Virus record (IMG/VR): IMGVR_UViG_3300046804_002325
Location: 62,001 to 126,000 of that record
Length of the DNA: 64,000 bases
Reading direction: 5' to 3' (one strand)
Source of the DNA: a virus
The position numbers were made by a program, and so were the translations under genes. The notes under the pieces are model-generated. The model worked only from the letters and a program-made list of their open reading frames with translations, was not told the DNA's origin and did not search any database. Below are positions 14,173 to 62,796 of the stretch, piece after piece. Each line of letters begins with the position of its first letter. Position 1 is the stretch's first letter.

Positions 14173-14200
14173 ATTATACACAAAAACCGAAAAATGGCAA
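14173..14200 (-). promoter_or_regulatory. TTGCCA-type promoter, proximal of two
   Basis: Minus strand -35 TTGCCA (14200-14195), 16-bp spacer, -10 TATAAT (14178-14173), with TTTTGTATTATA upstream. Drives the leftward early operon beginning at 14149. Confidence 0.8.
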
Positions 14201-14302
14201 TATAATACAAAAGTAATCCATCATTGTAATGGAATAAAAAAGTATTCATTTCCAATATTCATTGTTTTTGCACTTCGTGCTTTTGTGCTCATCATGCGTG
14301 GA

Positions 14303-14331
14303 ATTATACTGGGAAAAACGCATTTTGGCAA
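14303..14331 (-). promoter_or_regulatory. TTGCCA-type promoter, distal of two
   Basis: Minus strand GGTACTAGG then -35 TTGCCA (14331-14326), 17-bp spacer, -10 TATAAT (14308-14303). The ~100-base leader to the next promoter includes a 24-codon open frame (not called as a gene) and a GCAC/GTGC hairpin. Confidence 0.75.
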
Positions 14332-14344
14332 CCTAGTACCATAG

Positions 14345-14720
14345 TATTCAAGCATTTTGGTCAACTATTCGCTGTGGATATGCTGTGGATAACTTTACTT
14401 TGTAGATAAAATGTGAATAACTTTTGACCCTTGTGGGTATGCTGTGGATAAGTCGCACCAATAGTCGCAAACTATCGCTAATGCTTTGGTATTAGTCCAA
14501 CTTAGTCTCTGGGTCAGATGCCGGATTAATGCCAAAGTATACAAAAACCACGCAGGTTGAAAACAAAATGACGCTCGATGGTCCAGCCGAGAAACAAAAG
14601 TATGCAGCCCCAGTGTGATCCTGCAAACAAAAGTATTAATCCGGCGGCGACCGATAACCATCAGGCAGGGTCGGATTAGAGCTCCGGCTACCGATTGCTA
14701 TGGGTTGGATTATACACAAA
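14345..14720. other. Candidate replication origin: DnaA-box-like cluster plus iteron-like repeats
   Basis: Non-coding stretch between divergent early promoters. Six same-orientation 9-mers related to the DnaA box (complement TGTGGATAA) start at 14373, 14384, 14401, 14412, 14432 and 14443; those at 14384 and 14443 match it exactly. They form three pairs with 11-bp spacing. To the right, AAACAAAAGTAT occurs twice (14592, 14625), related AAAGTAT motifs recur, and a 10-bp inverted repeat CCGGATTAAT lies at 14521 and 14635. A leftward promoter (14709-14736) points into the block. Origin function is inferred. Confidence 0.6.
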
Positions 14721-14736
14721 CCAGAACCCTTGGCAA
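14709..14736 (-). promoter_or_regulatory. TTGCCA-type promoter firing into the origin-like block
   Basis: Minus strand -35 TTGCCA (14736-14731), 16-bp spacer, -10 TATAAT (14714-14709). No convincing gene follows for 550 bases; the RNA would start with a hairpin (TAATCCG/CGGATTA) and cross the repeat and DnaA-box-like region, so a primer or regulatory RNA is possible. Confidence 0.7.
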
Positions 14737-14785: not shown

Positions 14786-14814
14786 TTGCCAAAACCTGCA
14801 AAATCGCCTATAAT
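14786..14814 (+). promoter_or_regulatory. TTGCCA-type promoter, plus-strand early gene 1
   Basis: -35 TTGCCA (14786-14791), 17-bp spacer, -10 TATAAT (14809-14814), with GAAAAAAGTTTAC upstream, a block repeated before the next gene. Confidence 0.8.
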
Positions 14815-16049: not shown

Positions 16050-16709
16050 ATGACAGCAGCGACAATAAACAAAATTTCCAAAACCAGCAAGCTTGGTACC
16101 CTTTCATGGTCCCTCCAAGCTATTGAAACCTGTCCCGGTTCGGTTGGTGAAAATGGTGAGCTGGTCGCTGCTTGCTCTGGTTGCTACGCTACCACTGGTT
16201 GCTACAATTTCCCCGATACAAAAAAGGTCCGTGCTGACAATAAAAAGGCATGGCAAGAAGCTGACTGGATCCAGGTGATGGTCAAAGCTTTACAAAAGCA
16301 AACCCACTTCCGTTGGTTTGATTCTGGCGACGTGTATAGCCTCGCATTGGCAGAGAAAATGCTCGCCATCATGGCAGCTACTCCCCATGTAAAGCACTGG
16401 TTACCCACCCGCATGTATAAATTCCCTAAATTCCATAACGTGCTCAATGCCATGCAAGCACTGCCTAATGTAATGGTCCGCTATAGCAGTGACGCTGTGG
16501 ATGGTACCTTTGGTGCAGGCCATGGTAGTACCATTGTGCCAGCAGGTGCACCAGTGCCAGCAGGTGTTACATTGTGCGCCGCCCCAGAGCAGGATGGAAA
16601 ATGCTTGGACTGCCGTGCTTGCTATGACAAAACCGTGGCGGTTATCGGTTATCAGGCCCACGGTAAGAAAATGGCCAAGGTTATTCGTATTGCTGCAGCG
16701 ACAGCTTGA
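16050..16709 (+). CDS. Cys-rich 'gene product 88'-type phage protein
   Basis: 219 residues. I recognise the opening pattern of the phage GP88 family: KLG.LSWSLQAIETCPGS (about residues 14-31) followed by CSGCYATTGCY (43-53) and a late DCRACYDK (about 193). The nine or so cysteines in CxxC-type groups suggest metal or Fe-S binding. A central WFDSGD and HWLPTR segments look like conserved catalytic or binding blocks. The biochemical role of the family is unknown to me. Ribosome site AAAAAGGAATAGC. Followed by a strong terminator. Confidence 0.7.
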   Translation: MTAATINKISKTSKLGTLSWSLQAIETCPGSVGENGELVAACSGCYATTGCYNFPDTKKVRADNKKAWQEADWIQVMVKALQKQTHFRWFDSGDVYSLALAEKMLAIMAATPHVKHWLPTRMYKFPKFHNVLNAMQALPNVMVRYSSDAVDGTFGAGHGSTIVPAGAPVPAGVTLCAAPEQDGKCLDCRACYDKTVAVIGYQAHGKKMAKVIRIAAATA

Positions 16710-16734
16710 GGCACGGCTGGATGGCTGTCGCTTT

Positions 16735-16766
16735 GGGGACCAGTCTGGTGCTGGTCCCCTTTTTTT
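16735..16766 (+). terminator. Rho-independent terminator ending the plus-strand early operon
   Basis: Perfect 9-bp stem GGGGACCAG / CTGGTCCCC with a 7-base loop, followed by seven T residues (16760-16766). The stretch 16767-16895 has no gene; it contains a repeated GGGCCGATGG and unusually GC-rich bases. Confidence 0.9.
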
Positions 16767-16895
16767 GCTGGTAGCAGTGCGGTGAGCAGTATGGGGCCGA
16801 TGGCGGGCCGATGGGGTGGGGGCGTTAACGATAATAAAAAACGTGCCTCCAGGTCAAACTCTTTTTTCCCATTTTTTATTTTTCGGGGCTCCCCT

Positions 16896-17471
16896 TCAAT
16901 ATTCAAAAATTTTTTCTAGGAGGAATTTTTCTCCAGCCCTCGAGCCAACCAGACATTTATGTGGTTTCTCTAATAGGTTACCACTTTCAAATACTGTGGC
17001 ATAATAGTTTTCATTTCCGTTATCTACGGTAGACCACTCATTTTCATCCACATGACAGTTATACACAGAGAAATGCAGAGAATCACCAACTGGACCAAAA
17101 AGAGTTTCTATTGGTTCTTGATGGTACCACATGACAAAGACATACTCAGAGGTTCGTTTACTGTATTTACCGCCCATCCACTTGCAAGATTTTACAGAGG
17201 TAGAATCTACACCTGTAACTTTGATTTCGCATGGACCTGAGGTAAACAGTAAATCTGGGTCTCTGTCGGTCTTGGCCAATACAGTTTCTATTCCGATGGA
17301 GTTAAAATAATTTGCAGAAACGGATTCAAAGAGGTTTGAAATAACTTCAGATTTTATCTTCTTACGGTTTAAATGTGGAAGAACATTACTTGCAATAGTG
17401 GATACTTGGATGCAAATATTTCTCCAGTGGTCTGGTTCATATGGGTTCATCCTAAAGTCTTTAATGTTCAT
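16896..17471 (-). CDS. Putative PD-(D/E)XK nuclease
   Basis: 191 residues. Around residue 72 the sequence DPDLLFTSGPCEIKV fits the PD-(D/E)XK nuclease core: an Asp, ~9 residues, then E-x-K. Upstream helical part (NRKKIKSEVISNLFESV) and a Trp/Tyr-rich C-terminal half are compatible with a restriction-type endonuclease. No methyltransferase partner is near, so it may be a stand-alone host-DNA or repair nuclease. Family assignment is by motif only. Confidence 0.55.
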   Translation of the reverse strand: MNIKDFRMNPYEPDHWRNICIQVSTIASNVLPHLNRKKIKSEVISNLFESVSANYFNSIGIETVLAKTDRDPDLLFTSGPCEIKVTGVDSTSVKSCKWMGGKYSKRTSEYVFVMWYHQEPIETLFGPVGDSLHFSVYNCHVDENEWSTVDNGNENYYATVFESGNLLEKPHKCLVGSRAGEKFLLEKIFEY

Positions 17472-41450: not shown

Positions 41451-42131
41451 TCAATAATGTTCGATTTGACCATTTCCGGCCAGCCAACCCCAACAATATA
41501 ACCTGTCAAACTCGACCAGGTATTTCTCCGGAATGTTTAGGAAATGTCCATGTTCGGTATCCGGCACAACATTATTTGACAAATCTTTTAGGATTTCTTG
41601 CATAACCATAAGGTATGCGTCTAGTAATGAAGTGCAAAAGGAGAACATTCTGGTTATAAAGAGGTGTGTATTTGGATTATGCCAAGATACGATGCGTTTC
41701 TTAAACACAAATTTACCAAACAAATTATCATAATGTGAAATATCGAAACCATCTTCAAGTTCAGACCTAGCCGAGAATTTGAAGATTCTTTTAACATCTT
41801 TTAACAAGTTGTTTTGTTTTAATACTTGAAGTGTAGAAAACATCAAACAGTTTTCGCCATGACTTTTCAATCCATTTACTGCACAGAACCTGACATTTGG
41901 TTCTTCCGACATGTCAATATAGTAGTTGCATAATGAAGCAATAGCCTCTTTCTCTAGGTCTGTGACAGGCCTAACGGACACATCTGAAAAAGCGATAATT
42001 GCTTCTGGTACTTTTTCTCTTAACGATTTTAATGTGGCAATAGTTTGCGAAAACCTTTGGTCATCACTAAATGCACCCATTGTTGGTTTGAGTGCGGAAG
42101 TTACGATGAATAGGTTTTTATCTGGTATCAT
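41451..42131 (-). CDS. Uncharacterised protein of the glycan cluster
   Basis: 226 residues, start overlapping the HAD-fusion gene by 4 bases. Begins MIPDKNLFIVTSALKP and contains RFSQTIATLKSLREKVPEA, a layout like that of GT-A-type glycosyltransferases or sugar-modifying proteins, but without a clear DxD motif. Context (five carbohydrate genes follow) suggests a glycan role. Confidence 0.5.
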   Translation of the reverse strand: MIPDKNLFIVTSALKPTMGAFSDDQRFSQTIATLKSLREKVPEAIIAFSDVSVRPVTDLEKEAIASLCNYYIDMSEEPNVRFCAVNGLKSHGENCLMFSTLQVLKQNNLLKDVKRIFKFSARSELEDGFDISHYDNLFGKFVFKKRIVSWHNPNTHLFITRMFSFCTSLLDAYLMVMQEILKDLSNNVVPDTEHGHFLNIPEKYLVEFDRLYCWGWLAGNGQIEHY

Positions 42132-43153
42132 AAGAAATCACTTAGGTTATCCGAATCCCGTTTGATGTTGATTGCCTCAGCTCGTGGATATGGATTTGCG
42201 TTGTTGTAATCATTGATTAGTATGCGTCTTGAGTTCTGCAAACCTTCAATCAAGGTGAAACTCATAAAACCTAAGTCATATAGCATTTGACGAGTTTCTG
42301 CTCTGTACTGTGGTTCTCTTGCTGTAGTAAAGATGAACTGAGCACCTTTGGCCTGCCACTCCAACAATCGTTTGATATTGTTTTGTAATGGAACAACAGG
42401 TTTCTTGGCTTCCAAGTCCAGTCTGGATTGTGCTTGAATGATTGTACCGTCAATATCACAGAAGATAACAGGTTTATCATTATGTTCAAACCAATCTTGT
42501 GCGGTGCCAACATCAACATAGTTGGTCACATGTTTTTCGGTGAAGATTTGCATATTGTGTATGCAACGACCAATCACATCAGAAACAAACACTTCTCTTT
42601 CGGTAGTAAGAGATTCAAAGGCTTGTTTGTACATCATTGCTGATGAGAACTTATAACCACCAACACAGAATGTATTAGACACAACTTCTTTCTCTACGAT
42701 ATCGTAAATGATACCATCATTATTTGCAATCGTAAAAGACTTAGATGAAAGTTTCTTCAACACCTCATGTTGTGATACATTAGACACACAAACATAATTG
42801 CCTTCTGTAAAGTCATGTTCAAAATAACTGTCACAGTCTTTGATAAAGATTTCAGATGTGTGTAAACCAGCTTGCTGAATGATTTGGTATACTGTGTCTG
42901 CTGGACCACGGGTTGGTTTATCAATAATCACAAAATTGATATTATCCATCCATTCGTGTTGGATTTGTTTAATCACATCATACTTGTCTTGGTGTTCTTT
43001 TAGAATACCAATGTGTATACGATAACCACGCTGCCTGTAGGAACGCAAGGCATTCATCAACATCATATCACCCTTGTAATCATACAAGAGATATTTTGGT
43101 TTCATGTCTGGGAATCTGGTAGACAGACCAGCTGCTGGTACAATTATTTCCAT
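42128..43153 (-). CDS. Sugar nucleotidyltransferase fused to HAD phosphatase
   Basis: 341 residues. N-terminal NTP-transferase: PAAGLSTRFPDMKPKYL (residues 6-22). C-terminal HAD domain: FCDIDGTI (about 231-238) with TTAREPQY (about 273). Such NTase-HAD fusions occur in capsule or LPS-type gene clusters that make NDP-sugars and control sugar phosphates. Supplies activated sugar to the neighbouring glycosyltransferases. Confidence 0.78.
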   Translation of the reverse strand: MEIIVPAAGLSTRFPDMKPKYLLYDYKGDMMLMNALRSYRQRGYRIHIGILKEHQDKYDVIKQIQHEWMDNINFVIIDKPTRGPADTVYQIIQQAGLHTSEIFIKDCDSYFEHDFTEGNYVCVSNVSQHEVLKKLSSKSFTIANNDGIIYDIVEKEVVSNTFCVGGYKFSSAMMYKQAFESLTTEREVFVSDVIGRCIHNMQIFTEKHVTNYVDVGTAQDWFEHNDKPVIFCDIDGTIIQAQSRLDLEAKKPVVPLQNNIKRLLEWQAKGAQFIFTTAREPQYRAETRQMLYDLGFMSFTLIEGLQNSRRILINDYNNANPYPRAEAINIKRDSDNLSDFL

Positions 43154-43887
43154 AGTCTATTAATCTCTCTCAAAATAAATTCACGCTCAAAATCACCTTC
43201 TTTGGTATGTAGATACACTCTCAACAACATCAGAATCAAAACATTATCATTGAAGGCATCTGGATAACACTCTCGCAATGTATCCTGGATGTTCTGTAAC
43301 TTGAAGTCTAGTTTCGCATCACTATGACGGAGAAACCATTTACATTCCAAGTCCTGGCGAAGTTTGGCCACATCAAACACCCACGAATCATACTCAACTG
43401 TCACCGCATCTATCATATGGAAACCTGGATCGGTATAAATGATATTCTCTAAGGTCAGGTCACCATGATACATTGATTGTGGTATATTTTTCGGCAACTT
43501 TGCAATCAGTTGTTCTTTGGTGAATGGTAAACCTTCATGTGAATCCAACCATGCCAATTTTTGATAGTATGTTTTCGTGTAGTCTTTGATTATACTATTT
43601 TCAGAGAAACAGTCAAGTGTAACCAGTAAGAACTCTTGCAACTTTGTGGAAGTATTATGTAGTAGATAGTTTTTCATATCTAAACCATGAATGTATTCCA
43701 TCTCTAAGGTTTGGTTCAGGTATGTGTATATTTCAGGAACAGGATAACCAGACTTGTATAAGGCACTCAATCGTTCATAATTTCTATCAACATTTTTGAA
43801 TTTGCGTACCCATAATCCAGAATCATTTTCCATCAAAGTCACTTCACTACCAGAATGACCTTTCAACTCTTTTAAGATTTTCGCCAT
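43144..43887 (-). CDS. Aminoglycoside-phosphotransferase-fold kinase
   Basis: 247 residues. Catalytic loop YHGDLTLENIIY (about 139-150) and metal-binding MIDAVTVEYDSWVFDVAKL (about 157-175) are APH/choline kinase-type motifs. Probably phosphorylates a sugar or other small molecule in the cluster. Overlaps the downstream gene by 10 bases. Confidence 0.75.
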   Translation of the reverse strand: MAKILKELKGHSGSEVTLMENDSGLWVRKFKNVDRNYERLSALYKSGYPVPEIYTYLNQTLEMEYIHGLDMKNYLLHNTSTKLQEFLLVTLDCFSENSIIKDYTKTYYQKLAWLDSHEGLPFTKEQLIAKLPKNIPQSMYHGDLTLENIIYTDPGFHMIDAVTVEYDSWVFDVAKLRQDLECKWFLRHSDAKLDFKLQNIQDTLRECYPDAFNDNVLILMLLRVYLHTKEGDFEREFILREINRLWK

Positions 43888-44549
43888 TCTTCAATATCGT
43901 CCCTAATCAAAGAATGCCATGTGCCGTTGTAGTTTCCTGGTGGGAATGGATTGTTCATATTAACATACACAAGGTTCTCTCCGTGGAGTCCATGTTCATG
44001 TAAGTTGGCTCTCATCATATCTTCACCAATAAATTGATTGCCTGCATTATAATACTTGTCAAGGTTTAGAAAAGTTGACATATACTTCATCATGGTTTGT
44101 TTTGAACCAAATGCAAACTGGTCATTACCAAAATCTCTTTCTGGTACCATACGACAATTTGGAATATACAACTTGGTATTGTCAAGTTCTTCAAAAGGAA
44201 TCTTTACATTCAAAGCATAGTCTGTACGAGCCTTAATAACCCAATCATAATCACCATGAATCAAAGTACTGCACATATACATTGAGTATAACATTCTGTA
44301 TGTGAATCGTGGTGGATGTCTCTCTGCGTTAGGTGTATTTGTATATTTTGAATCAAAGTCACCAACAGGTGGTTCTTCAAAAACATAATCGAGTGGTTTA
44401 TAGGTATGAAGTAATTCATTTCCTTCATCCATGTGCCAAGTATGAATGTAAACATCCACATCATAATGGTCTAAAAGGTTACGCTTGTAGTATTCGTAAC
44501 CTTTTTCAAAACTTCTGGCTTGACCAGAGAAACATAATGCAATTTTCAT
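43872..44549 (-). CDS. Glycosyltransferase-like protein
   Basis: 225 residues from ATG 44549 (ATGA with the upstream stop). Opening MKIALCFSGQARSFEKGYEY, then DYDWVIKARTDYALNV (about 102-117) with RTD as a DxD-like sugar-nucleotide site. The GQ.R pattern is shared with the next gene, so the two are related glycosyltransferases of an unclassified GT-A group. Confidence 0.65.
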   Translation of the reverse strand: MKIALCFSGQARSFEKGYEYYKRNLLDHYDVDVYIHTWHMDEGNELLHTYKPLDYVFEEPPVGDFDSKYTNTPNAERHPPRFTYRMLYSMYMCSTLIHGDYDWVIKARTDYALNVKIPFEELDNTKLYIPNCRMVPERDFGNDQFAFGSKQTMMKYMSTFLNLDKYYNAGNQFIGEDMMRANLHEHGLHGENLVYVNMNNPFPPGNYNGTWHSLIRDDIEEWRKS

Positions 44550-45250
44550 CTTTGTAAATATACAGGTAAATTTGTTGTATGATATGTATGACCGTTCATA
44601 ATGATGTTTCTCATCAACATCAGATGCGGACAATATCTGGTTTTAATGTGTGTTTGTATATCTTGTTCAGGATATTTCTTAACATTCCTCAACCAATCCA
44701 AGAACTCTGGTTCCCACGGTGTTGAATGTAATCTCTCATAATCTTTATATAAGAAGTAACTTTTGGTCATTGACATTGGCATAATAGCAAAAATATCAGA
44801 GATTAGATTGTATGATTCTTCTTCTGGTGTTATGATTCTATCAACAGAATGAAACATAAACATTTGTTTGAAACCAATATCATAACGACAGTAAACAACC
44901 ACATCATAATCTTGGTTGACCATTTGAAGTGCCGCATCTCTACTGTAATTCATAGAAGCATTGCCTGCAAGTTTATCTTCGTTAGGTCCTTTTGGATTGG
45001 CAGACAAGATGCGTTCTTCAATATGTTTGAATTCATCCATAAGACTATCAGTTATTGGTTGTTGAAAGATTCGTTTTGGTTGTAGTCTATCTTTCACCTC
45101 ATGGAACTGTCTTAGATTTTCCTGTTCATCCTCAACTCCCCACAGATGTGCATACACATCCAACTCATTCGTATCAATGAACTCTTTTAGTCTAGGCCAA
45201 GTATTATCGAATGTACGATACTGGCCTGATATCACCATGCACTTTTTCAT
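44546..45250 (-). CDS. Glycosyltransferase-like protein
   Basis: 234 residues from ATG 45250 (ATGA). MKKCMVISGQYRTFDNTW opening and YDVVVYCRYDIGFK (about 110) with a DxD-like RYD. Same family as its downstream neighbour. Probably adds sugar to a phage or host surface molecule or to DNA. Confidence 0.62.
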   Translation of the reverse strand: MKKCMVISGQYRTFDNTWPRLKEFIDTNELDVYAHLWGVEDEQENLRQFHEVKDRLQPKRIFQQPITDSLMDEFKHIEERILSANPKGPNEDKLAGNASMNYSRDAALQMVNQDYDVVVYCRYDIGFKQMFMFHSVDRIITPEEESYNLISDIFAIMPMSMTKSYFLYKDYERLHSTPWEPEFLDWLRNVKKYPEQDIQTHIKTRYCPHLMLMRNIIMNGHTYHTTNLPVYLQR

Positions 45251-45810
45251 TTGATCCAGTACCAAACATCAGATTCTGTGATTTGAATTGTTTTACCAAC
45301 TTTTGCGGCAAACTCATCAGCTGCTTGACGAACACCAGGAATGGCATTGTAATCGTGACCTGCAAAGATGCCACCTTCTTTTAATTTTGGATAGTAGTTT
45401 GCACAATCTTTGGTCAACTGGTCATATTCATGTAGACCATCAATAAAGATTAAATCAAAGAAATTATCGAAAACACGCTCTGCAGCATCATCAGAATATT
45501 CACGCAACAAAGCAAAACGGTTCTTGTAACCAGACAATCTATTCATAAATCGTTCATAAACAACTTCACGTTCATTCAAGTTATTGCCATTCCAATCAAT
45601 ATAGTTGACATAAGGATCAATACCAGTTAAAGTAAGGTGTGGATTGCTGTCCAACAAAAATTGTGTAGTGTCACCAATATCACAACCAATCTCGAGCACT
45701 TTTGGATTTTGCATCTTTGCAACCATGGCACCTAGGCCATAACCAGAACACTTGAATATTGGTTGACCGAAAGCCTGTGTCTCGGTGTTAAATGTAATAA
45801 TATCACTCAT
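45247..45810 (-). CDS. Class I SAM-dependent methyltransferase
   Basis: 187 residues. SAM motif I VLEIGCDIGDTTQFLL (about residues 38-53), GIDPYVNY (motif II) and FFDLIFIDGLHEYDQ (about 114-128) fit Methyltransf_24-type enzymes. In glycan clusters these often methylate sugars. Four-base overlap with the glycosyltransferase. Confidence 0.82.
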   Translation of the reverse strand: MSDIITFNTETQAFGQPIFKCSGYGLGAMVAKMQNPKVLEIGCDIGDTTQFLLDSNPHLTLTGIDPYVNYIDWNGNNLNEREVVYERFMNRLSGYKNRFALLREYSDDAAERVFDNFFDLIFIDGLHEYDQLTKDCANYYPKLKEGGIFAGHDYNAIPGVRQAADEFAAKVGKTIQITESDVWYWIK

Positions 45811-45812
45811 AG

Positions 45813-46679
45813 TTAAACCTTATATGTAAAATAGTTTTCAGGATCTTTTTGTTTGTATTTCAATTGAATGAATTTTTTCCATTCTGGTACACGGTCATAT
45901 TGATGTACTATGTAGAATGTTTTGCCGTTGGCAGTTTTAACCACTCCATCTTCCATGATTGGTTCTTCTTCTAATAGATTTGGTCTGAATGAATCAATCT
46001 TTGATGGATCAACAACTGTGCCTGCTTGACATGCCCAACCGGTATTCATATCTGCCTTCATCACCACATTTTTATATGGTTGTGTATTAATTAACACATT
46101 GAAAACTGCTTGGTCAACAATTGGGATTGGACGATTGGTACCATTGGTAAAGATATTGAATACCAAATCTTTCATGTATTCTGCTGAACCACCTAAGACG
46201 CCAACATTATAAATTGTGTTGTCTTTGAATAGATTGTGTACATATGGTCCATAAGCCTGCAATAAGTTTTCGTTGCCCCAAGATTCATCTTTATATTTCA
46301 AACATTCTGAACCAGCAACGAGTTGATTCATGTCTCTGACACCGATGTTGTGGTAGTCCAAAAACTCAAATGGATTTTTCTGAAAATAAACATCTTTCAC
46401 ATCAGTTGTGATGACATATTCATAATCTTGCCAGTTCTTTTCTAAGAAATCGTAGATTGATAAGAATCGTAATACGTGTACTGGAATGTTTGCCTGTGGC
46501 ATTTCAACAATGTGAAAATTGTTGTTCAGGAGCCATTGTCTAGTTTCAACTGATGCATTACCAACACACATTACCTTGTCAGCGTCAGGCATTTGTTCAT
46601 TGATAGACAACACCCAAGGTTTCAATTCATTTATTCCATAATTGGTACAACCGCCAATTATGAGGTTCTTTTTTGCCAT
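45813..46679 (-). CDS. Glycosyltransferase-like protein
   Basis: 288 residues. LIIGGCTNYGINELKPWVLS start, with the DVKDVYFQKNPF segment (about residue 91-102) acting as a DxD-type motif and GVLGGSAEYMKDLVF later. GT-A fold expected. Part of the glycan cluster; acceptor unknown. Confidence 0.65.
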   Translation of the reverse strand: MAKKNLIIGGCTNYGINELKPWVLSINEQMPDADKVMCVGNASVETRQWLLNNNFHIVEMPQANIPVHVLRFLSIYDFLEKNWQDYEYVITTDVKDVYFQKNPFEFLDYHNIGVRDMNQLVAGSECLKYKDESWGNENLLQAYGPYVHNLFKDNTIYNVGVLGGSAEYMKDLVFNIFTNGTNRPIPIVDQAVFNVLINTQPYKNVVMKADMNTGWACQAGTVVDPSKIDSFRPNLLEEEPIMEDGVVKTANGKTFYIVHQYDRVPEWKKFIQLKYKQKDPENYFTYKV

Positions 46680-47377
46680 GGTAAAACTCCATTATATTTT
46701 TTGTTCATAATATCATTGCCGTAGAAGAAGAATTCTGGTTTAACAGAACCTTCATTTCCAGCAAGTCTGTAATTCACACTATATTCACATGTGCAATCGT
46801 AGTTCTTAAAGTGTTGAGATAATATATTCAACCAAACTCTATCTTGGCCCCAACCGCCGTGCCATACTTGTGCCAATTTTATCGCAATTTGAGTTTTAAG
46901 GCAATAACAATTAGTATCTATGTGATTATAATCACCACTAAAGACTGGCCATTTGCCTAATGATTCACAGTTATCATTGACCAGAAACTTACCTTCTTTA
47001 TCACATATCTTGCGTAAGGAATAAGTCCAATCAAGTCCCAAAACTTTGATATTGTCTATACACAACTGAACATGATTGGGGTCCAACCAACAGTCCTGGT
47101 CGAGATATAGTACATACTCGGTGTTGATTAGGTGTGTGAATGCTGCGTAGATTCGGTGTCCATAGAAACCGTTAGCACCCACATTAACTGGCAAGTAACC
47201 AAATTTCATTCTTGGATTACCAGCATATTCATCACAAATCACTTTTACTTTACCATAATGTTGTTGACCATCACATACAACATAACAATCGGTAAGATAA
47301 CTTTGATTCAATACACTTTCAATAGCTTTCCTTAACTCTGGTGCACCAGTAGTCGGAATAATCACAGTCGCAGTCAT
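46658..47377 (-). CDS. Family 2 glycosyltransferase
   Basis: 239 residues. MTATVIIPTTGAPELRKAIESVLNQS is the GT2 N-terminal pattern, with LYLDQDCWLDP (about residue 90-100) as the DxD metal site and WGQDRVW (about 177). Transfers sugar from NDP-sugar. Last gene of the glycan cluster before the conserved 89-aa gene; overlaps the downstream gene by 22 bases. Confidence 0.78.
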   Translation of the reverse strand: MTATVIIPTTGAPELRKAIESVLNQSYLTDCYVVCDGQQHYGKVKVICDEYAGNPRMKFGYLPVNVGANGFYGHRIYAAFTHLINTEYVLYLDQDCWLDPNHVQLCIDNIKVLGLDWTYSLRKICDKEGKFLVNDNCESLGKWPVFSGDYNHIDTNCYCLKTQIAIKLAQVWHGGWGQDRVWLNILSQHFKNYDCTCEYSVNYRLAGNEGSVKPEFFFYGNDIMNKKYNGVLPWQKRTS

Positions 47378-58768: not shown

Positions 58769-58845
58769 TGGTTGCAGTGGTTGGACTCGCACCAACGACC
58801 TCCGAGGGTATGAACCTGGTGAGATGGCTTCTTCTCTACACTGCT
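58769..58845 (-). tRNA. tRNA-Met (CAT), initiator-like
   Basis: 77 nt, CCA encoded. Acceptor GCAGTG/CACTGC with an unpaired first position (A1, A72), as in initiator tRNAs; anticodon loop TTCATAC. T-loop TGCGAGT is unusual (G at position 55). One mismatch in the anticodon stem, and the three G:C pairs typical of initiators are missing, so initiator status is uncertain. Confidence 0.75.
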
Positions 58846-58850
58846 ACAAA

Positions 58851-58915
58851 TGGAGCGGGAAACAAGATTCTCACTTGTATATTGGGTGGACCCCAACATT
58901 GTTAAAAACTCCCGC
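58851..58915 (-). tRNA. Degenerate tRNA-Gly-like gene (TCC), D-arm lost
   Basis: 65 nt, CCA encoded. Acceptor GCGGGAG/TTCCCGC, U73 and T-arm (ACAAG/CTTGT) are intact, but the D-arm is reduced to ~11 nt and the anticodon loop GGTCCAC lacks U33. Probably a decaying or specialised second glycine tRNA. Confidence 0.55.
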
Positions 58916-58923
58916 ATAAAACT

Positions 58924-58997
58924 TGGAGCGGAATATCAGAATCGAACTGATAACTCTAACTTGGAAGGATAGCGTTTTGCCACTAAACTAATTCCGC
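58924..58997 (-). tRNA. tRNA-Gly (TCC)
   Basis: 74 nt, CCA encoded, acceptor GCGGAAT, anticodon loop CTTCCAA, T-loop TTCGATT, U73 as expected for glycine. Confidence 0.93.
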
Positions 58998-59005
58998 ATG
59001 TATGT

Positions 59006-59034
59006 ATTATATATCAAAAAATTTGTAGAGTCAA
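59006..59034 (-). promoter_or_regulatory. Promoter inside the tRNA array (before Gly, Gly-like, Met, groES-like)
   Basis: Minus strand -35 TTGACT (59034-59029), 17-bp spacer, -10 TATAAT (59011-59006), starting ~10 bases before tRNA-Gly. Confidence 0.75.
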
Positions 59035-59058
59035 TAGTTTTTTTTAAAATATACCGTT

Positions 59059-59132
59059 TGGTGCCCCGTGACAGAATCGAACTGCCAACCTCTGATTACA
59101 AAACAGATGTTATACCACTTAACTAACAGGGC
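59059..59132 (-). tRNA. tRNA-Thr (TGT)
   Basis: 74 nt, CCA encoded, acceptor GCCCTGT/ACGGGGC, anticodon loop TTTGTAA. Confidence 0.92.
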
Positions 59133-59137
59133 AAATT

Positions 59138-59211
59138 TGGAGCGGGTAGCGAGAATCGAACTCGCAAATAAACCTTGGCAAGGTTTCAGGTTACCTTTAC
59201 ATCATACCCGC
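59138..59211 (-). tRNA. tRNA-Gly (GCC)
   Basis: 74 nt, CCA encoded, acceptor GCGGGTA, anticodon loop TTGCCAA, U73. Confidence 0.93.
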
Positions 59212-59220
59212 AAAAGAGTT

Positions 59221-59249
59221 ATTATATATGCTCCACAATCATTTGTCAA
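59221..59249 (-). promoter_or_regulatory. Consensus promoter inside the tRNA array (before Gly-GCC)
   Basis: Minus strand -35 TTGACA (59249-59244), 17-bp spacer, -10 TATAAT (59226-59221), in the 46-base gap between tRNA-Leu(TAA) and tRNA-Gly(GCC). Confidence 0.8.
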
Positions 59250-59257
59250 GCATTATT

Positions 59258-59347
59258 TGGTGCGACTGGCCGGAATCGAACCGGCACGACCCTTTCGGAA
59301 TCTTCGGATTTTAAGTCCGATGCGTCTACCTATTTCACCACAGTCGC
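59258..59347 (-). tRNA. tRNA-Leu (TAA)
   Basis: 90 nt, CCA encoded, long variable arm as normal for leucine, anticodon TAA, A73. Confidence 0.93.
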
Positions 59348-59351
59348 AAAC

Positions 59352-59426
59352 TGGTCCGGCGTGCAGGAATCGAACCCACATTAAAAGGGTAGAAGCCTTC
59401 TGTATTATCCATTATACTAACGCCAG
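59352..59426 (-). tRNA. tRNA-Arg (TCT)
   Basis: 75 nt, CCA encoded, acceptor CTGGCGT/ACGCCGG, anticodon loop CTTCTAC. Reads AGA/AGG, rare in many hosts. Confidence 0.9.
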
Positions 59427-59431
59427 TTGTT

Positions 59432-59508
59432 TGGTGCCCCAAGCGAGAGTCGAACTCGCAAAATTTGGTTTCTAAGACCAACACGTATACCAATTCCGTC
59501 ATCGGGGC
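59432..59508 (-). tRNA. tRNA-Leu (TAG) with short variable loop
   Basis: 77 nt, CCA encoded. Leucine-type D-arm (ACGGAATTGGTATACGT) and A73, anticodon loop CTTAGAA, but only ~5 nt in the variable region where leucine tRNAs normally have a long arm. Confidence 0.85.
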
Positions 59509-59522
59509 AAATAAATAATCTT

Positions 59523-59711
59523 ATGTCAGAATTCAAATCAGCAGAACCTAATCTTTGGCGATATGCCGCAACTCAACCATACATTGATAGAAAATCATAT
59601 GTATGTGAGAAAACTTTTGCGCCATCTTTTCCTAAAAAAGAAAATGTTCCATTTGAACGAACTGAAATAAAACAACTTGGTGCTCCAAGAAAGAATCGAA
59701 CTTTCATTTAA
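59523..59711 (+). CDS. Plus-strand 62-aa ORF inside the tRNA array
   Basis: ATG 59523 to TAA 59709-59711. MSEFKSAEPNLWRYAATQPY opening and a protein-like middle; the last ~10 residues read the antisense of tRNA-Thr(GGT). AATAAATA, close to a late promoter, lies 6 bases before the ATG. It is the only gene in this orientation in the array and explains the 169-base gap between tRNAs. Moderate support. Confidence 0.4.
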   Translation: MSEFKSAEPNLWRYAATQPYIDRKSYVCEKTFAPSFPKKENVPFERTEIKQLGAPRKNRTFI

Positions 59712-59751
59712 TCCTTACCATGGATTTGTTTTGCCATTAAACTATAGGAGC
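59678..59751 (-). tRNA. tRNA-Thr (GGT)
   Basis: 74 nt, CCA encoded, acceptor GCTCCTA, anticodon loop ATGGTAA. Second threonine isoacceptor of the array. Confidence 0.9.
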
Positions 59752-59752
59752 A

Positions 59753-59829
59753 TGGTACCCAAGGTGGGATTCGAGCCCACAAAAACATGTGTTTGAGACA
59801 TGCACGTTTACCTATTTCGTCACTTGGGC
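59753..59829 (-). tRNA. tRNA-Leu (CAA) with short variable loop
   Basis: 77 nt, CCA encoded. Anticodon loop CTCAAAC; leucine-like D-arm (GACGAAATAGGTAAACGT) but a ~5-nt variable loop. G1:U72 closing pair. Confidence 0.85.
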
Positions 59830-59832
59830 ATT

Positions 59833-59908
59833 TGGTGCAACCTAGAGGAATCGAACCTCTTTCAATGGTTCTTCAGACCACCGCTATGACCACATCAGCT
59901 AAAGTTGC
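59833..59908 (-). tRNA. tRNA-Phe (GAA)
   Basis: 76 nt, CCA encoded, acceptor GCAACTT/AGGTTGC, anticodon loop CTGAAGA. Confidence 0.92.
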
Positions 59909-59912
59909 ATAT

Positions 59913-59987
59913 TGGTGCATCGTGAGAGGATTGAACTCCCGACCTTCGCCTTGTAAGGGCGCAGCTCTACCGCTGAGCTAACGATGC
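59913..59987 (-). tRNA. tRNA-Val (TAC)
   Basis: 75 nt, CCA encoded, acceptor GCATCGT, anticodon loop CTTACAA, T-loop TTCAATC. Confidence 0.93.
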
Positions 59988-59992
59988 ATATT

Positions 59993-60067
59993 TGGGGAGA
60001 TATAAGAGAATCGAACTCTTGATAACGGAATCACAACCCGTGGTTTTACCACTAAACTAATATCTCC
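59993..60067 (-). tRNA. tRNA-His (GTG)
   Basis: 75 nt including G-1 opposite C73, the histidine identity pair, and encoded CCA. Anticodon loop TTGTGAT. Confidence 0.93.
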
Positions 60068-60070
60068 ATA

Positions 60071-60556
60071 TTATTGTAATGCTTCCTGTTCTGCCAAAAT
60101 TCTTTTCAGTCTGTCAGCACAGAAACTTGCAGCAGGCGCATCTGGTTTAACCATAGGTGTCATGTTACATGTACCTTTGATATAACCAATTGCTTGTTGT
60201 ACCACACATGAACTGCCGTGCATATCATCTTTATTTAAGTCCAAATGAACTTCAACATGATAATCTTCTAACACTTCAGCTAATGATTGGAACAATTCTG
60301 AAACCTTATATACTTCTGTCATCAGACGCATAGCAGGTTTACTTTTCTTGTGGTCATAATCTAATTCACGGTCAACATAACCGAAAATTTTACAACCATG
60401 GCGGCCATCAATATGAACTACGACAGCCAAAGCATAATCAGCATACCAAACGCCGTTAACACGGATACGTTCAGAGTCAGCACCCAAATAAACTTTCGTA
60501 TCTGGTCCTTGGTTTGCAAGGAATTGTTTGACTTCTTGTATGTCGAAATTTCTCAT
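60071..60556 (-). CDS. RNase H-like protein (DUF458/YkuK type)
   Basis: 161 residues from ATG 60556 after AAAGGTG; the longer frame would read through two tRNA genes. VYLGADSERIRVNGVWYADYALAVVV (D and acidic residues) and VEVHLDLNKDDMHGSS fit the DUF458 RNase H-like fold, with likely metal-binding acids DS, E and D. A plausible role is nucleic acid cleavage or RNA processing within the tRNA operon. Found inside tRNA clusters and elsewhere in phages. Confidence 0.68.
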   Translation of the reverse strand: MRNFDIQEVKQFLANQGPDTKVYLGADSERIRVNGVWYADYALAVVVHIDGRHGCKIFGYVDRELDYDHKKSKPAMRLMTEVYKVSELFQSLAEVLEDYHVEVHLDLNKDDMHGSSCVVQQAIGYIKGTCNMTPMVKPDAPAASFCADRLKRILAEQEALQ

Positions 60557-60576
60557 ATCAATCACCTTTCTATAAA

Positions 60577-60650
60577 TGGCTCCCCGCCAGGGAATCGAAC
60601 CCCGTCCAAAAGTTTTGGAGACTCTTGTGCTACCGGAACACTTGCGGGAA
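60577..60650 (-). tRNA. tRNA-Trp (CCA)
   Basis: 74 nt, CCA encoded, acceptor TTCCCGC/GCGGGGA, G73 and anticodon loop CTCCAAA, both tryptophan features. First gene after the RNase H-like ORF's ribosome site in the transcript. Confidence 0.9.
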
Positions 60651-60657
60651 ATAAATC

Positions 60658-60732
60658 TGGTACCCCGTGTAAGAATTGAACTTACGGCCAATGCCTTATC
60701 AAGACACTGCTCTACCACTGAGCTAACGAGGT
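60658..60732 (-). tRNA. tRNA-Ile (GAT)
   Basis: 75 nt, CCA encoded, acceptor ACCTCGT/ACGGGGT, anticodon loop TTGATAA. Confidence 0.92.
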
Positions 60733-60936
60733 AAAATGCTCTGACATCCTGCGGCGGTAATTATAGTGTATCATCTCTTGGGTTTCCCCGCAAATCTCAC
60801 ACACCCTCCACCCGCTTCCCGACCAGGACCGCTCTCGTGCTGCCAACGGCCTTTCGGTTTAAAGACTACCACCCGTGTATATCATTACACTTCTCATCCT
60901 GCGGGTCACAGTAGTGGTTGACGAGACCACACGTTC
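60733..60936 (-). ncRNA. Long structured spacer between tRNA-Arg(ACG) and tRNA-Ile
   Basis: 204 nt, markedly more GC-rich than the genome. Contains GTGG/CCAC, ACCCGC/GCGGGT and CCG/CGG helices and a repeated GCAGGATG. No open frame of note. Other gaps in the array are 1-9 nt, so this is a likely separate RNA. Confidence 0.5.
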
Positions 60937-61011
60937 TGGAGGGCAATGAGAGAATCAAACTCCCGTTTCAAGGTTCGTAGCCTCGTGTATTATTCACTAT
61001 ACGAATCGCCC
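60937..61011 (-). tRNA. tRNA-Arg (ACG)
   Basis: 75 nt, CCA encoded, acceptor GGGCGAT, anticodon loop CTACGAA. T-loop TTTGATT departs from TTCRA. Confidence 0.85.
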
Positions 61012-61015
61012 ATGT

Positions 61016-61090
61016 TGGTGGTTCAGGTGAGAATCGAACTCACACAAGGCACCGTATGAAGATGCTGCACTGCCACTATGCTACTGAACC
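61016..61090 (-). tRNA. tRNA-Met (CAT)
   Basis: 75 nt, CCA encoded, acceptor GGTTCAG/CTGAACC fully paired, anticodon loop TTCATAC. Elongator methionine, or lysidine-type tRNA-Ile2, which sequence alone cannot separate. Confidence 0.88.
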
Positions 61091-61096
61091 GAAATT

Positions 61097-61171
61097 TGGT
61101 GGACCGTGAGAGAATCGAACTCTCACCTGAGGCTTGCAAAGCCACCGTGCTCCCATTATCACTAACAGCCC
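61097..61171 (-). tRNA. tRNA-Ala (TGC)
   Basis: 75 nt, CCA encoded, acceptor GGGCTGT/ACGGTCC, anticodon loop TTTGCAA, one mismatch in the anticodon stem. The G3:U70 alanine identity pair is present. Confidence 0.92.
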
Positions 61172-61220
61172 AAATAACTTACTACTTATCTCATTGTACG
61201 CCGCAAGTTAAGGCGAGATA
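61172..61220 (-). ncRNA. Short structured spacer between tRNA-Pro and tRNA-Ala
   Basis: 49 nt. TATCTC ... GAGATA closing helix with an inner CGCC/GGCG stem; an alternative TAACTT/AAGTTA pairing exists. No gene fits. Confidence 0.4.
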
Positions 61221-61296
61221 TGGTCTCCGTAGAGGGATTTGAACCCCCACTGCTTGGTCCCAAACCAAGAGCGCTACCAGGTTACGCTATACGGAG
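61221..61296 (-). tRNA. tRNA-Pro (TGG)
   Basis: 76 nt, CCA encoded, acceptor CTCCGTA/TACGGAG, anticodon loop TTTGGGA. Confidence 0.94.
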
Positions 61297-61301
61297 AAAA
61301 A

Positions 61302-61377
61302 TGGCTCCCTAGGTATGGATCGAACATACGACATCTTGATTAACAGTCAAGCGCAACTACCTCTGTGCTACTAGGGA
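61302..61377 (-). tRNA. tRNA-Asn (GTT)
   Basis: 76 nt, CCA encoded, acceptor TCCCTAG/CTAGGGA, G73, anticodon loop CTGTTAA. Confidence 0.94.
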
Positions 61378-61462
61378 ATAAAATCTTGAAAGTTCCGATA
61401 TCACCCATCGTCACTAACAACCGTTGAGTAACCATGCATCAAAACAAGATTACTGTTTGCCT
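61378..61462 (-). ncRNA. Structured spacer between tRNA-Asp and tRNA-Asn
   Basis: 85 nt with closing helix AATCTTG/CAAGATT (61445-61451 with 61382-61388) and inner partial stems. Possibly an excised small RNA; no open frame. Confidence 0.45.
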
Positions 61463-61537
61463 TGGCGGTCCCAAGGGGTAACGATCCCCTTCTTTATGCG
61501 TGACAGGCATACGTGCGTCCATGAACACTTTGAGACC
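61463..61537 (-). tRNA. tRNA-Asp (GTC)
   Basis: 75 nt, CCA encoded, acceptor GGTCTCA/TGGGACC, G73, anticodon loop CTGTCAC. T-loop ATCGTTA differs from the usual TTCGANN. Confidence 0.88.
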
Positions 61538-61623
61538 TAAATTGGTGCAGGGCTTTCACCTGCTGCTAATCAAACCGGGTTACGGTGATTAATCTGCCTT
61601 GATTATTCCTCAAGGACTTTTAT
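61538..61623 (-). ncRNA. Three-hairpin spacer between tRNA-Tyr and tRNA-Asp
   Basis: 86 nt with three stacked hairpins: CCTTGA/TCAAGG, TAATC-ACCG/CGGT-TGATTA and GCAGG/CCTGC. The last hairpin is followed by ACCA, as if a tRNA-like 3' end, but no acceptor stem can be drawn. Confidence 0.5.
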
Positions 61624-61708
61624 TGGTGGAGACGGTGTGAGTCGAACACACAATGCCAGAGGCGGCGGATTTACAGTCCACTGGGGTTACCAATTTTCCT
61701 ACATCTCC
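61624..61708 (-). tRNA. tRNA-Tyr (GTA)
   Basis: 85 nt, CCA encoded, long variable arm as usual for bacterial tyrosine, anticodon loop CTGTAAA, A73. Confidence 0.94.
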
Positions 61709-61717
61709 ATAATTGTT

Positions 61718-61792
61718 TGGTAGGTCCACAGAGAATCGAACTCTGATTTACTGGTTAAAAGCCAGTTACTTTAGCCGTTAAGTTATGAACCC
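61718..61792 (-). tRNA. tRNA-Lys (TTT)
   Basis: 75 nt, CCA encoded, acceptor GGGTTCA/TGGACCT with G1:U72, anticodon loop CTTTTAA. Confidence 0.93.
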
Positions 61793-62005
61793 ATCTACCA
61801 TATTAAATCACACTAGGGTGTCACAATCGTTTCTCACCGAGACTTCTCACGGCACCGTCTGCCGATAAGATTGTGTCCACATTACAAGTCAACTAATTCC
61901 AGCACCATCGGAGGGCTTCATGTAAACTTATTCAGCGTGGGTCGGCACCCATCTTGCTACCAAATAAGCCACCTACTGGAGTTGATAACCTAATGCAATT
62001 TAATA
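61793..62005 (-). ncRNA. Large structured spacer between tRNA-Glu and tRNA-Lys
   Basis: 213 nt closed by a perfect 8-bp helix TATTAAAT/ATTTAATA (62005-61998 with 61808-61801). Inside: CACAATC/GATTGTG, CGGCA/TGCCG, CTTATT/AATAAG, TGGGT/ACCCA and CCAG/CTGG with AACT/AGTT. Multi-branched; no open frame. Strong candidate small RNA. Confidence 0.6.
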
Positions 62006-62080
62006 TGGTACACGGTACGAGAATCGAACTCGTCTTTCCGCCTTGAAAGGGCAGCGTCCTAACCGATAGACGAACCGTGC
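62006..62080 (-). tRNA. tRNA-Glu (TTC)
   Basis: 75 nt, CCA encoded, acceptor GCACGGT/ACCGTGT, anticodon loop CTTTCAA. First tRNA after one boxA-like leader. Confidence 0.93.
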
Positions 62081-62082
62081 AT

Positions 62083-62123
62083 ATTAACTCTACAAATTTT
62101 TAAAGAACAAGATGTGTATTGTA
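62083..62123 (-). repeat. Duplicated tRNA leader with boxA-like element, copy 1
   Basis: 41 bases identical to 62803-62843. Minus strand reads from the -10 TACAAT into GTTCTTTAAAAATTTGTAGA, matching the boxA/anti-termination core of rRNA leaders. Placed directly before tRNA-Glu. Confidence 0.7.
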
Positions 62124-62145
62124 TCACAACCACATCTTTTGTCAA
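62118..62145 (-). promoter_or_regulatory. Promoter of the second tRNA transcript with upstream palindrome
   Basis: Minus strand -35 TTGACA (62145-62140), 16-bp spacer, -10 TACAAT (62123-62118); palindrome 62152-62169 is 6 bp upstream of the -35. Confidence 0.85.
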
Positions 62146-62151
62146 CCATCA

Positions 62152-62169
62152 TGTTGTAAAATTACAACA
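62152..62169. promoter_or_regulatory. Putative operator, 18-bp palindrome (tRNA-Glu promoter copy)
   Basis: TGTTGTA-AAAT-TACAACA, perfect 7-bp arms. Confidence 0.7.
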
Positions 62170-62174
62170 CAACT

Positions 62175-62251
62175 TGGAGTAGGTGACAGGAATCGAACCT
62201 GCATAAAATGGATTTGCAATCCACGGCCTAACCGTTCGGCTACACACCTAC
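62175..62251 (-). tRNA. tRNA-Cys (GCA)
   Basis: 77 nt, CCA encoded, acceptor GTAGGTG/CACCTAC, U73 and anticodon loop TTGCAAA, as expected for cysteine. Confidence 0.93.
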
Positions 62252-62257
62252 ATTGTT

Positions 62258-62349
62258 TGGTACCAGCGGTGAGAATCAAACTCACTCAAGAACGCTAATC
62301 TGGCGCTAAAAGGTGTATAAGACCTCTCTGACTACCAAGTCTCGCTGGC
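62258..62349 (-). tRNA. Class II tRNA with anticodon TAT (Ile AUA by decoding)
   Basis: 92 nt, CCA encoded, acceptor GCCAGCG/CGCTGGT, T-arm GTGAG/CTCAC. The anticodon loop CTTATAC gives TAT, yet there is a long variable arm (GCGCC ... GCG), which normal isoleucine tRNAs lack, and the D-loop is only 4 nt. Amino acid identity is therefore uncertain. Confidence 0.6.
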
Positions 62350-62352
62350 ATT

Positions 62353-62441
62353 TGGTGGAGACTGTGGGAGTCGAACCCACTCGCCGTATCACTACAACGA
62401 CAGATTAGCAATCTGCTGCATTACCATCCTGCCCAATCTCC
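62353..62441 (-). tRNA. tRNA-Ser (GCT)
   Basis: 89 nt, CCA encoded, long variable arm, anticodon loop TTGCTAA, acceptor GGAGATT. Confidence 0.93.
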
Positions 62442-62550
62442 ATAAATATTTTGTTAGACTGATTAACTAGCTCGGAAGGATGCCAACTTTGATAGTTTTG
62501 CTAGTTTCCTATCAAACTTGTTGAAAGCCAAATTCCCAGTCTAACGCAAT
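62442..62550 (-). ncRNA. Pseudoknotted structured RNA between tRNA-Ser(TGA) and tRNA-Ser(GCT)
   Basis: 109 nt. Closing helix GTTAGACTG/CAGTCTAAC (9 bp, 62545-62537 with 62461-62453). Internal hairpin TTTGATAG/CTATCAAA (62516-62509 with 62495-62488) extended by CAAC/GTTG. Its 13-nt loop carries AACTAGC (62506-62500), complementary to GCTAGTT (62471-62465), giving a 7-bp pseudoknot. No coding potential. Confidence 0.65.
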
Positions 62551-62642
62551 TGGCGGAAAGCAGAGGAGTCGAACCCCATCCCATTTCTGAGAACCTAGTT
62601 TTCAAGGCTAGTCGCCGGACCATCCCAGCTGCATTACTTTCC
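62551..62642 (-). tRNA. tRNA-Ser (TGA)
   Basis: 92 nt, CCA encoded, long variable arm, G73 and anticodon loop CTTGAAA, acceptor GGAAAGT/GCTTTCC. Confidence 0.93.
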
Positions 62643-62722
62643 ATATAGAAACACACTAACACGGCTACCACACCTTATGATGTCCTGTGACCGCACTTCA
62701 GGTTAGATAATGTGTTTTTATA
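62643..62722 (-). ncRNA. Structured 80-nt RNA between tRNA-Gln and tRNA-Ser(TGA)
   Basis: Lies exactly between two mature tRNA ends, so it would be released by tRNA processing. Terminal helix of 11 of 12 pairs (TATAAAAACACA/TGTGTTTCTATA), then CTAAC/GTTAG and inner CCTG/CAGG and ACA/TGT stems. No open frame. Confidence 0.6.
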
Positions 62723-62796
62723 TGGCACCCCCACTTGGAATCAAACCAAGACTAACAAGTTCAAAGCCTGTTGTGCTATCACTACACCATGGAGGA
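62723..62796 (-). tRNA. tRNA-Gln (TTG)
   Basis: 74 nt, CCA encoded, anticodon loop CTTTGAA, G73 and an unpaired first position (U1:U72), both in line with glutamine identity. Confidence 0.9.

Follow-up and report, generated by a model that had tools for sequence, protein, structure and literature searches.

Described systems and the phage locus

T4-like phages are the model for replication independent of the host initiator, and we know of no need for DnaA in T4 itself. The T4 origins oriE, oriF, and oriG are located at transcription divergences; oriE comprises an early promoter and 12-nt direct repeats of ill-defined role, and oriF a promoter followed by an AT-rich unwinding element, the site of an R-loop (PMC3016281). 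In E. coli oriC, the arrays R5M-t2-I1-I2 and C3-C2-I3-C1 hold weak DnaA sites lying in one direction and separated by gaps of exactly 2 bp, the gap and the common direction letting DnaA spread from a strong site (PMC4451416). Lambda is an earlier case of a phage origin on which DnaA acts via transcription (PMC3985674), the T5 injection stop region comprises repeats and DnaA boxes (PMC13250531), and predicted origins with DnaA boxes have already been described in single phages (PMC11512268). Our search of the open-access literature turned up no description of such arrays for T4-like phages.

The locus described here is found in a virus record of 176,978 bp, of which bases 62001-126000 (64 kb) form the window, whose numbering is used throughout unless the record is named. 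It is non-coding, situated between leftward and rightward small genes, and carries six DnaA-box-like sites in three head-to-tail pairs:

14373..14392, plus strand: box pair 1, TGTGGATAT / TGTGGATAA, 11-bp register
14401..14420, plus strand: box pair 2, TGTAGATAA / TGTGAATAA, the second box being the conserved one
14432..14451, plus strand: box pair 3, TGTGGGTAT (two mismatches) / TGTGGATAA, 11-bp register

The initial annotation had placed six sites here, all facing the same way and paired at 11 bp; all six 9-mers were recovered on the plus strand, with starts at 14373 (TGTGGATAT), 14384 (TGTGGATAA), 14401 (TGTAGATAA), 14412 (TGTGAATAA), 14432 (TGTGGGTAT), and 14443 (TGTGGATAA), and the spacing is exact in each pair, the partners being 11 bp apart, i.e., with a 2-bp gap between the 9-bp sites. 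Successive pairs start 28 and 31 bp from each other. Every pair is made of one strong box (TGTGGATAA or TGTGAATAA) and a weaker partner. The count of two exact DnaA boxes holds for the strongest box, TGTGGATAA, alone and has to be raised to three when the consensus TGTGNATAA (TTATNCACA) is used, two of the remaining sites having one mismatch and TGTGGGTAT two. Two occurrences of TTATACACA, at 14174 and 14710, were rejected as extra boxes, as they are the -10 elements of leftward promoters. An ORF running across the array on the minus strand (14395-14661) is not a gene, the indels of a relative not being multiples of three.

The phage sites resemble the E. coli oriC arrays in lying one-way, with 2-bp gaps and strong beside weak (PMC4451416), and within the pairs the same-direction boxes are in the cooperative register. 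Unlike at oriC, the pairs are set apart by gaps of 8-11 bp (17- and 20-bp register), with neither an unbroken run nor a second, opposed array; moreover, the phage site has phage promoters and a lineage-specific block as neighbours, and host DnaB/DnaC would in principle not be needed.

The six-site array is real and not a product of chance. The pair pattern TGTNNRTAWNNTGTNNRTAW has three matches in the window versus 0.03 expected, a number reached in 0 of 100 shuffles, and there is no match outside the array in the whole record. In 300 second-order Markov simulations of the window the densest 80-bp stretch held 4 boxes, up to one mismatch per box being allowed, versus five in the array, and three 11-bp pairs never occurred, the largest number being 2; the pair pattern was written from the array itself, so the shuffle and simulation figures are post hoc, and the conservation and collection-wide tests presented below, being independent of that origin, weigh more. 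It is the cluster, as in an oriC-type origin, that goes beyond chance: single TGTGGATAA sites number four genome-wide, two of them in the array, versus four for the reversed control, which is the chance level. Two further TGTGGATATGC sites, which lie in the record at 132.4 and 162.9 kb, were discarded as singletons without a paired box.

Conservation of the boxes in relatives

Motif conservation in relatives, proposed in the initial annotation as a check, is borne out by the array of a 94%-identical relative and by boxes at the corresponding place in more diverged ones. The nearest relative, IMGVR_3300046779_001269 (L208), whose gene 88-like protein is 94% identical, has at the same place and on the same strand TGTGGATAA, TGTGGATAA, TGTGAATAA, and TGTGGATAA, that is, four exact boxes, and retains TGTGGGTAT too. 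Its pair 1 position is occupied by TGTGGATAA/TGTGGATAA, a 10-bp deletion in pair 2 removes the weak TGTAGATAA and leaves TGTGAATAA, and both boxes of pair 3 are retained. At the position of pair 3, L132 has TGTGGATAA/TGTGGATAA, and the 20-mer of pair 1, TGTGGATATGCTGTGGATAA, is identical in the diverged relative G008 (L214).

A wider sample was formed by contigs encoding, with 48-59% identity, a neighbouring 711-aa protein (annotated as a 'peptidase' in Kyanoviridae) and picked without regard to boxes. Arrays or pairs lie 3-7 kb past the 711-aa gene and on the strand opposite to it, as in the window, in L132, L143, L161/L162, L175, L182, and L193/L194, and in the other orientation relative to this gene in L146/L148/L149 and L157; the array is thereby retained in lineages ca. 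49-55% identical in the 711-aa gene. Strict 11-bp pairs number five in 33 non-redundant loci, with none at 11 bp in ten Markov replicates. Counted by record, a strict pair is present in 7 of 13 relatives, at one locus each, and the reversed pattern in none. The array varies from 2 to 6 boxes across relatives, about half of those sampled having no strict pair, and both the studied phage and its 176-kb relative carry one array locus per genome. No box cluster was found in the 22 kb examined around the homologue of the 711-aa gene in cyanophage S-CRM01 and Pelagibacter phage HTVC008M.

The flanking module

The array is part of a module: to its left lie a leftward sigma70-like promoter and, farther out, the AT-rich stretch, and to its right, in this order, the conserved block, a second leftward promoter, and a rightward promoter. 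Its elements outside the array, together with the adjoining promoter, are as follows:

14173..14200, minus strand: leftward promoter of the next leftward small gene, its -10 element giving a spurious TGTGTATAA 'box'
14200..14249, no strand: AT-rich stretch, candidate unwinding element, the least stable 50-mer near the array (99.8th percentile of the window)
14303..14331, minus strand: PL1, leftward sigma70-like promoter (TTGCCA-17-TATAAT), with a match here in 7 of 7 module loci
14501..14522, plus strand: core of the conserved non-coding block, CTTAGTYTSWRGGTSMGATKCC, the wider block spanning about 14478-14610
14709..14736, minus strand: PL2, leftward sigma70-like promoter (TTGCCA-16-TATAAT), in 6 of 7 loci
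14786..14814, plus strand: rightward sigma70-like promoter (TTGCCA-17-TATAAT) of the rightward early genes, in 5 of 7 loci

Measured from the block, the leftward promoter is found at -174 to -198 (7/7 loci), the second leftward promoter at +190 to +223 (6/7), and the rightward promoter at +259 to +285 (5/7), while the AT-rich minima of most module relatives fall at about -180 to -310. The small genes diverge from the module in all six loci checked. The predicted PL1 transcript heads into the AT-rich stretch, and that from PL2 would traverse the block and then the array. The reading of the AT-rich stretch as an unwinding element carries the caveat that such a character is expected at promoters anyway; the distance between the boxes and the least stable duplex is 120-170 bp, and a consistent polarity of weak duplex was not found across viral arrays, the 5' side being the weaker in 23 of the 61 listed. 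The cumulative GC skew, falling along the leftward genes, halts at the array, a change that is local and tracks gene direction.

The block is almost invariant among the window, L208, and L132. A scan of IMG/VR with CTTAGTYTSWRGGTSMGATKCC alone gave six viral contigs, all six with same-strand DnaA boxes 48-117 bp upstream; L208, L218 (the contig of L132), and L220 (that of L194) were relatives known beforehand, and L217 and L219 are alike, so fewer than six of the contigs count as independent support. A structured RNA in the block was rejected on comparative evidence despite a strong hairpin in the window (about 14481-14540, z -4.8): RNAalifold over ten relatives gave no consensus structure, Rfam no match, and the stem is absent in L217 and L219, whose arms are direct repeats in place of inverted ones.

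Two other observations concern this region. A ACCAAAGTATACA-like motif, possibly a regulator site, occurs in many copies on both strands between 13400 and 14650, near promoters and in the block. The contig of the 176-kb close relative ends at about window position 16425-17460, which places an assembly break just right of the module.

Judged by anatomy only, the module resembles T4 oriE, with direct repeats at a conserved place, a transcription divergence, a composition shift, and an early-type promoter (PMC3016281); the repeats of the module are recognisable as DnaA boxes. A promoter with an A+T-rich stretch downstream, PL1 in this case, is what it shares with oriF and oriG, the origins of the R-loop type, again by anatomy only, the module promoters looking sigma70-like rather than MotA-type. 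A search for MotA gave no match in the phage, but the control search was equally silent. The module joins features of the oriF type, PL1 pointing into the AT-rich stretch, with those of the oriE type, the repeats being DnaA boxes. The most economical reading would make it a phage origin and a region of early control, both operated by host DnaA.

Gene content and host

The phage encodes a T4-type DNA polymerase, ca. 50-52% identical to cyanophage polymerases, a gp59-like helicase loader, and a DnaB-like helicase. The initial annotation had allowed for a similar binding protein; a phage-encoded one is not supported, as the C-terminal DNA-binding domain of DnaA (PF08299) has 0 matches in the phage genome, the controls being positive in 10 genomes.

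A cyanobacterial host was considered and rejected. No match to psbA was found in the phage, and cyanobacterial DnaA boxes are mostly TTTTCCACA (PMC4674748), both of which make a host with the TTATCCACA box likelier than a cyanobacterium. A scan of genome contigs gave a sole, distant match, in a gammaproteobacterial MAG. The window also carries 27 clustered tRNA genes on the minus strand (58769-62796) and, as judged by eye, a series of proteins of glycosyltransferase-like and sugar-nucleotide-like character on the same strand (42128-47377), possibly involved in surface or DNA modification.

Tandem DnaA arrays in other viral contigs

A four-box tandem pattern occurs in at least 120 stretches of IMG/VR and its reversed version in none. 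The 120 listed stretches fall into at least 73 families without shared flanks, many of which hold more 11-bp-spaced boxes than the search pattern required. Lactococcus 949-like phages, Proteus and Salmonella T5-like phages, T7-like enterobacterial phages, and microviruses are among the named carriers in the matches listed. In the array-bearing contigs L008-L127 the boxes are head-to-tail, with 11-bp spacing, and mostly intergenic. Among the matches listed, 56 of 61 testable arrays lie outside ORFs of at least 100 aa, as against 19% of random positions, and in 18 of 41 the GC skew turns from negative to positive at the array (random, 19%), the reverse being seen in 4. The DnaA C-terminal domain is absent from 50 of 50 other array-bearing viral records, which makes them unlike host oriC/dnaA contaminants; presumably, these viruses rely on host DnaA. 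Tandem DnaA arrays are thus common in viral genomes.

Function of the array

Host DnaA is well supported as the ligand by the box sequence, orientation, 2-bp gap, and conservation, and very probably binds the array. The initial annotation named its recruitment by the phage as one option, of which the ligand has gained this support, the functional step being a matter of inference. It is decidedly improbable that the sites are bound by some other protein, of the phage or of the host, which recognises a DnaA-like sequence, as at plasmid iterons or the oriE repeats: T4 oriE does have evenly spaced direct repeats with no recognised ligand in a syntenic, divergently transcribed region (PMC3016281), and the conserved block here is likewise without a known one, but 17 of 25 boxes lineage-wide are exactly TGTGGATAA, the spacing fits DnaA oligomers, and the recurrence of this array type in the many families without shared flanks points to a shared host ligand.

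If host DnaA is bound, it might act on transcription alone, activating or repressing PL1, PL2, and the rightward promoter and timing the early genes to host DnaA-ATP, with no origin involved. DnaA is a known promoter regulator (PMC8203912), conserved sigma70-like promoters flank the array on both sides at similar offsets, and lambda has footprinted DnaA sites near pO and DnaA-stimulated transcription at ori-lambda (PMC3985674). We consider this account rather unlikely, given that the nearest box is separated by about 40 bp from the PL1 -35 element, on its upstream side, that the boxes shift in number and exact position among relatives, which is unusual for promoter-contact sites, and that the account does not by itself cover the conserved block. 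In the meeting of DnaA sites, promoters, and an (inferred) replication start the locus resembles lambda ori/pO-pR (PMC3985674). Lambda differs in the number of DnaA-box-like sites, two near pO against six in tandem here, and in having an initiator, O, of its own, whereas for the present locus none is known. Sequestration, the other option of the initial annotation, would make the array a multi-copy sponge drawing DnaA off host oriC and halting host initiation. In E. coli, DnaA amounts to about 200 molecules per origin, and the mioC region, when carried on a plasmid, titrates about eight (PMC5835720), so up to six sites per genome could matter in a hundred phage copies; the small non-coding DnaA-box clusters datA and DARS of E. 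coli are similar in kind, yet lack the phage promoters and origin-like setting of the module. Pure titration is nevertheless unlikely, as the boxes are confined to a single locus, with the chance level elsewhere, and a sponge needs neither the promoters nor the block of the conserved module. T4-like phages, besides, generally stop host replication by other means. For a DNA-entry signal it can be said that the T5-type injection stop signal, a phage non-coding region with repeats, has DnaA boxes as one of its described features (PMC13250531), and that T5-like phages are among the array carriers. The phage group and context are different here, the site being internal to a 177-kb record, amid small early genes. 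We know of no two-step DNA transfer in T4-like myoviruses, and this role is very hard to credit.

Anatomically, an origin or a region of early control is a better fit than a pure sponge, given the single locus, divergent early transcription, conserved promoters, AT-rich neighbour, and lineage-specific block. The conserved row of boxes suggests that the phage borrows host DnaA, probably to start its own DNA copying. That the region functions as a replication origin is, in our estimate, an even matter, the phage's having replication proteins of its own counting against it; the wider proposal, of a host-DnaA platform around which a conserved module of early origin and control functions is arranged in this T4-like phage, seems to us just as evenly balanced.

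In such an origin, host DnaA would first occupy the two or three strong boxes and then spread head to tail onto the weak neighbours, 2 bp apart and on one helix face. Together with transcripts running left from PL1 and PL2, bound DnaA would weaken the duplex of the adjacent AT-rich stretch; the opening could take the form of a DnaA bubble or, as at T4 oriF, of an R-loop. Phage gp59, gp41, primase, and polymerase could enter there and start the first replication round or rounds, after which recombination-dependent replication would take over.

It is a tentative proposal, somewhat short of even likelihood, that a T4-like lineage turned an early origin into a host-DnaA-operated, oriC-like one, combining a DnaA array, an R-loop promoter, and a lineage-specific block, and that similar 11-bp head-to-tail arrays are widespread and largely unrecorded in phage origins. 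If the array is a conserved DnaA platform, some T4-like phages would couple their first replication round or early transcription to the host initiator and its ATP state. It also suggests, as a hypothesis, which ligand could act on a class of phage direct repeats that, like those at T4 oriE, are described as having an ill-defined role (PMC3016281).
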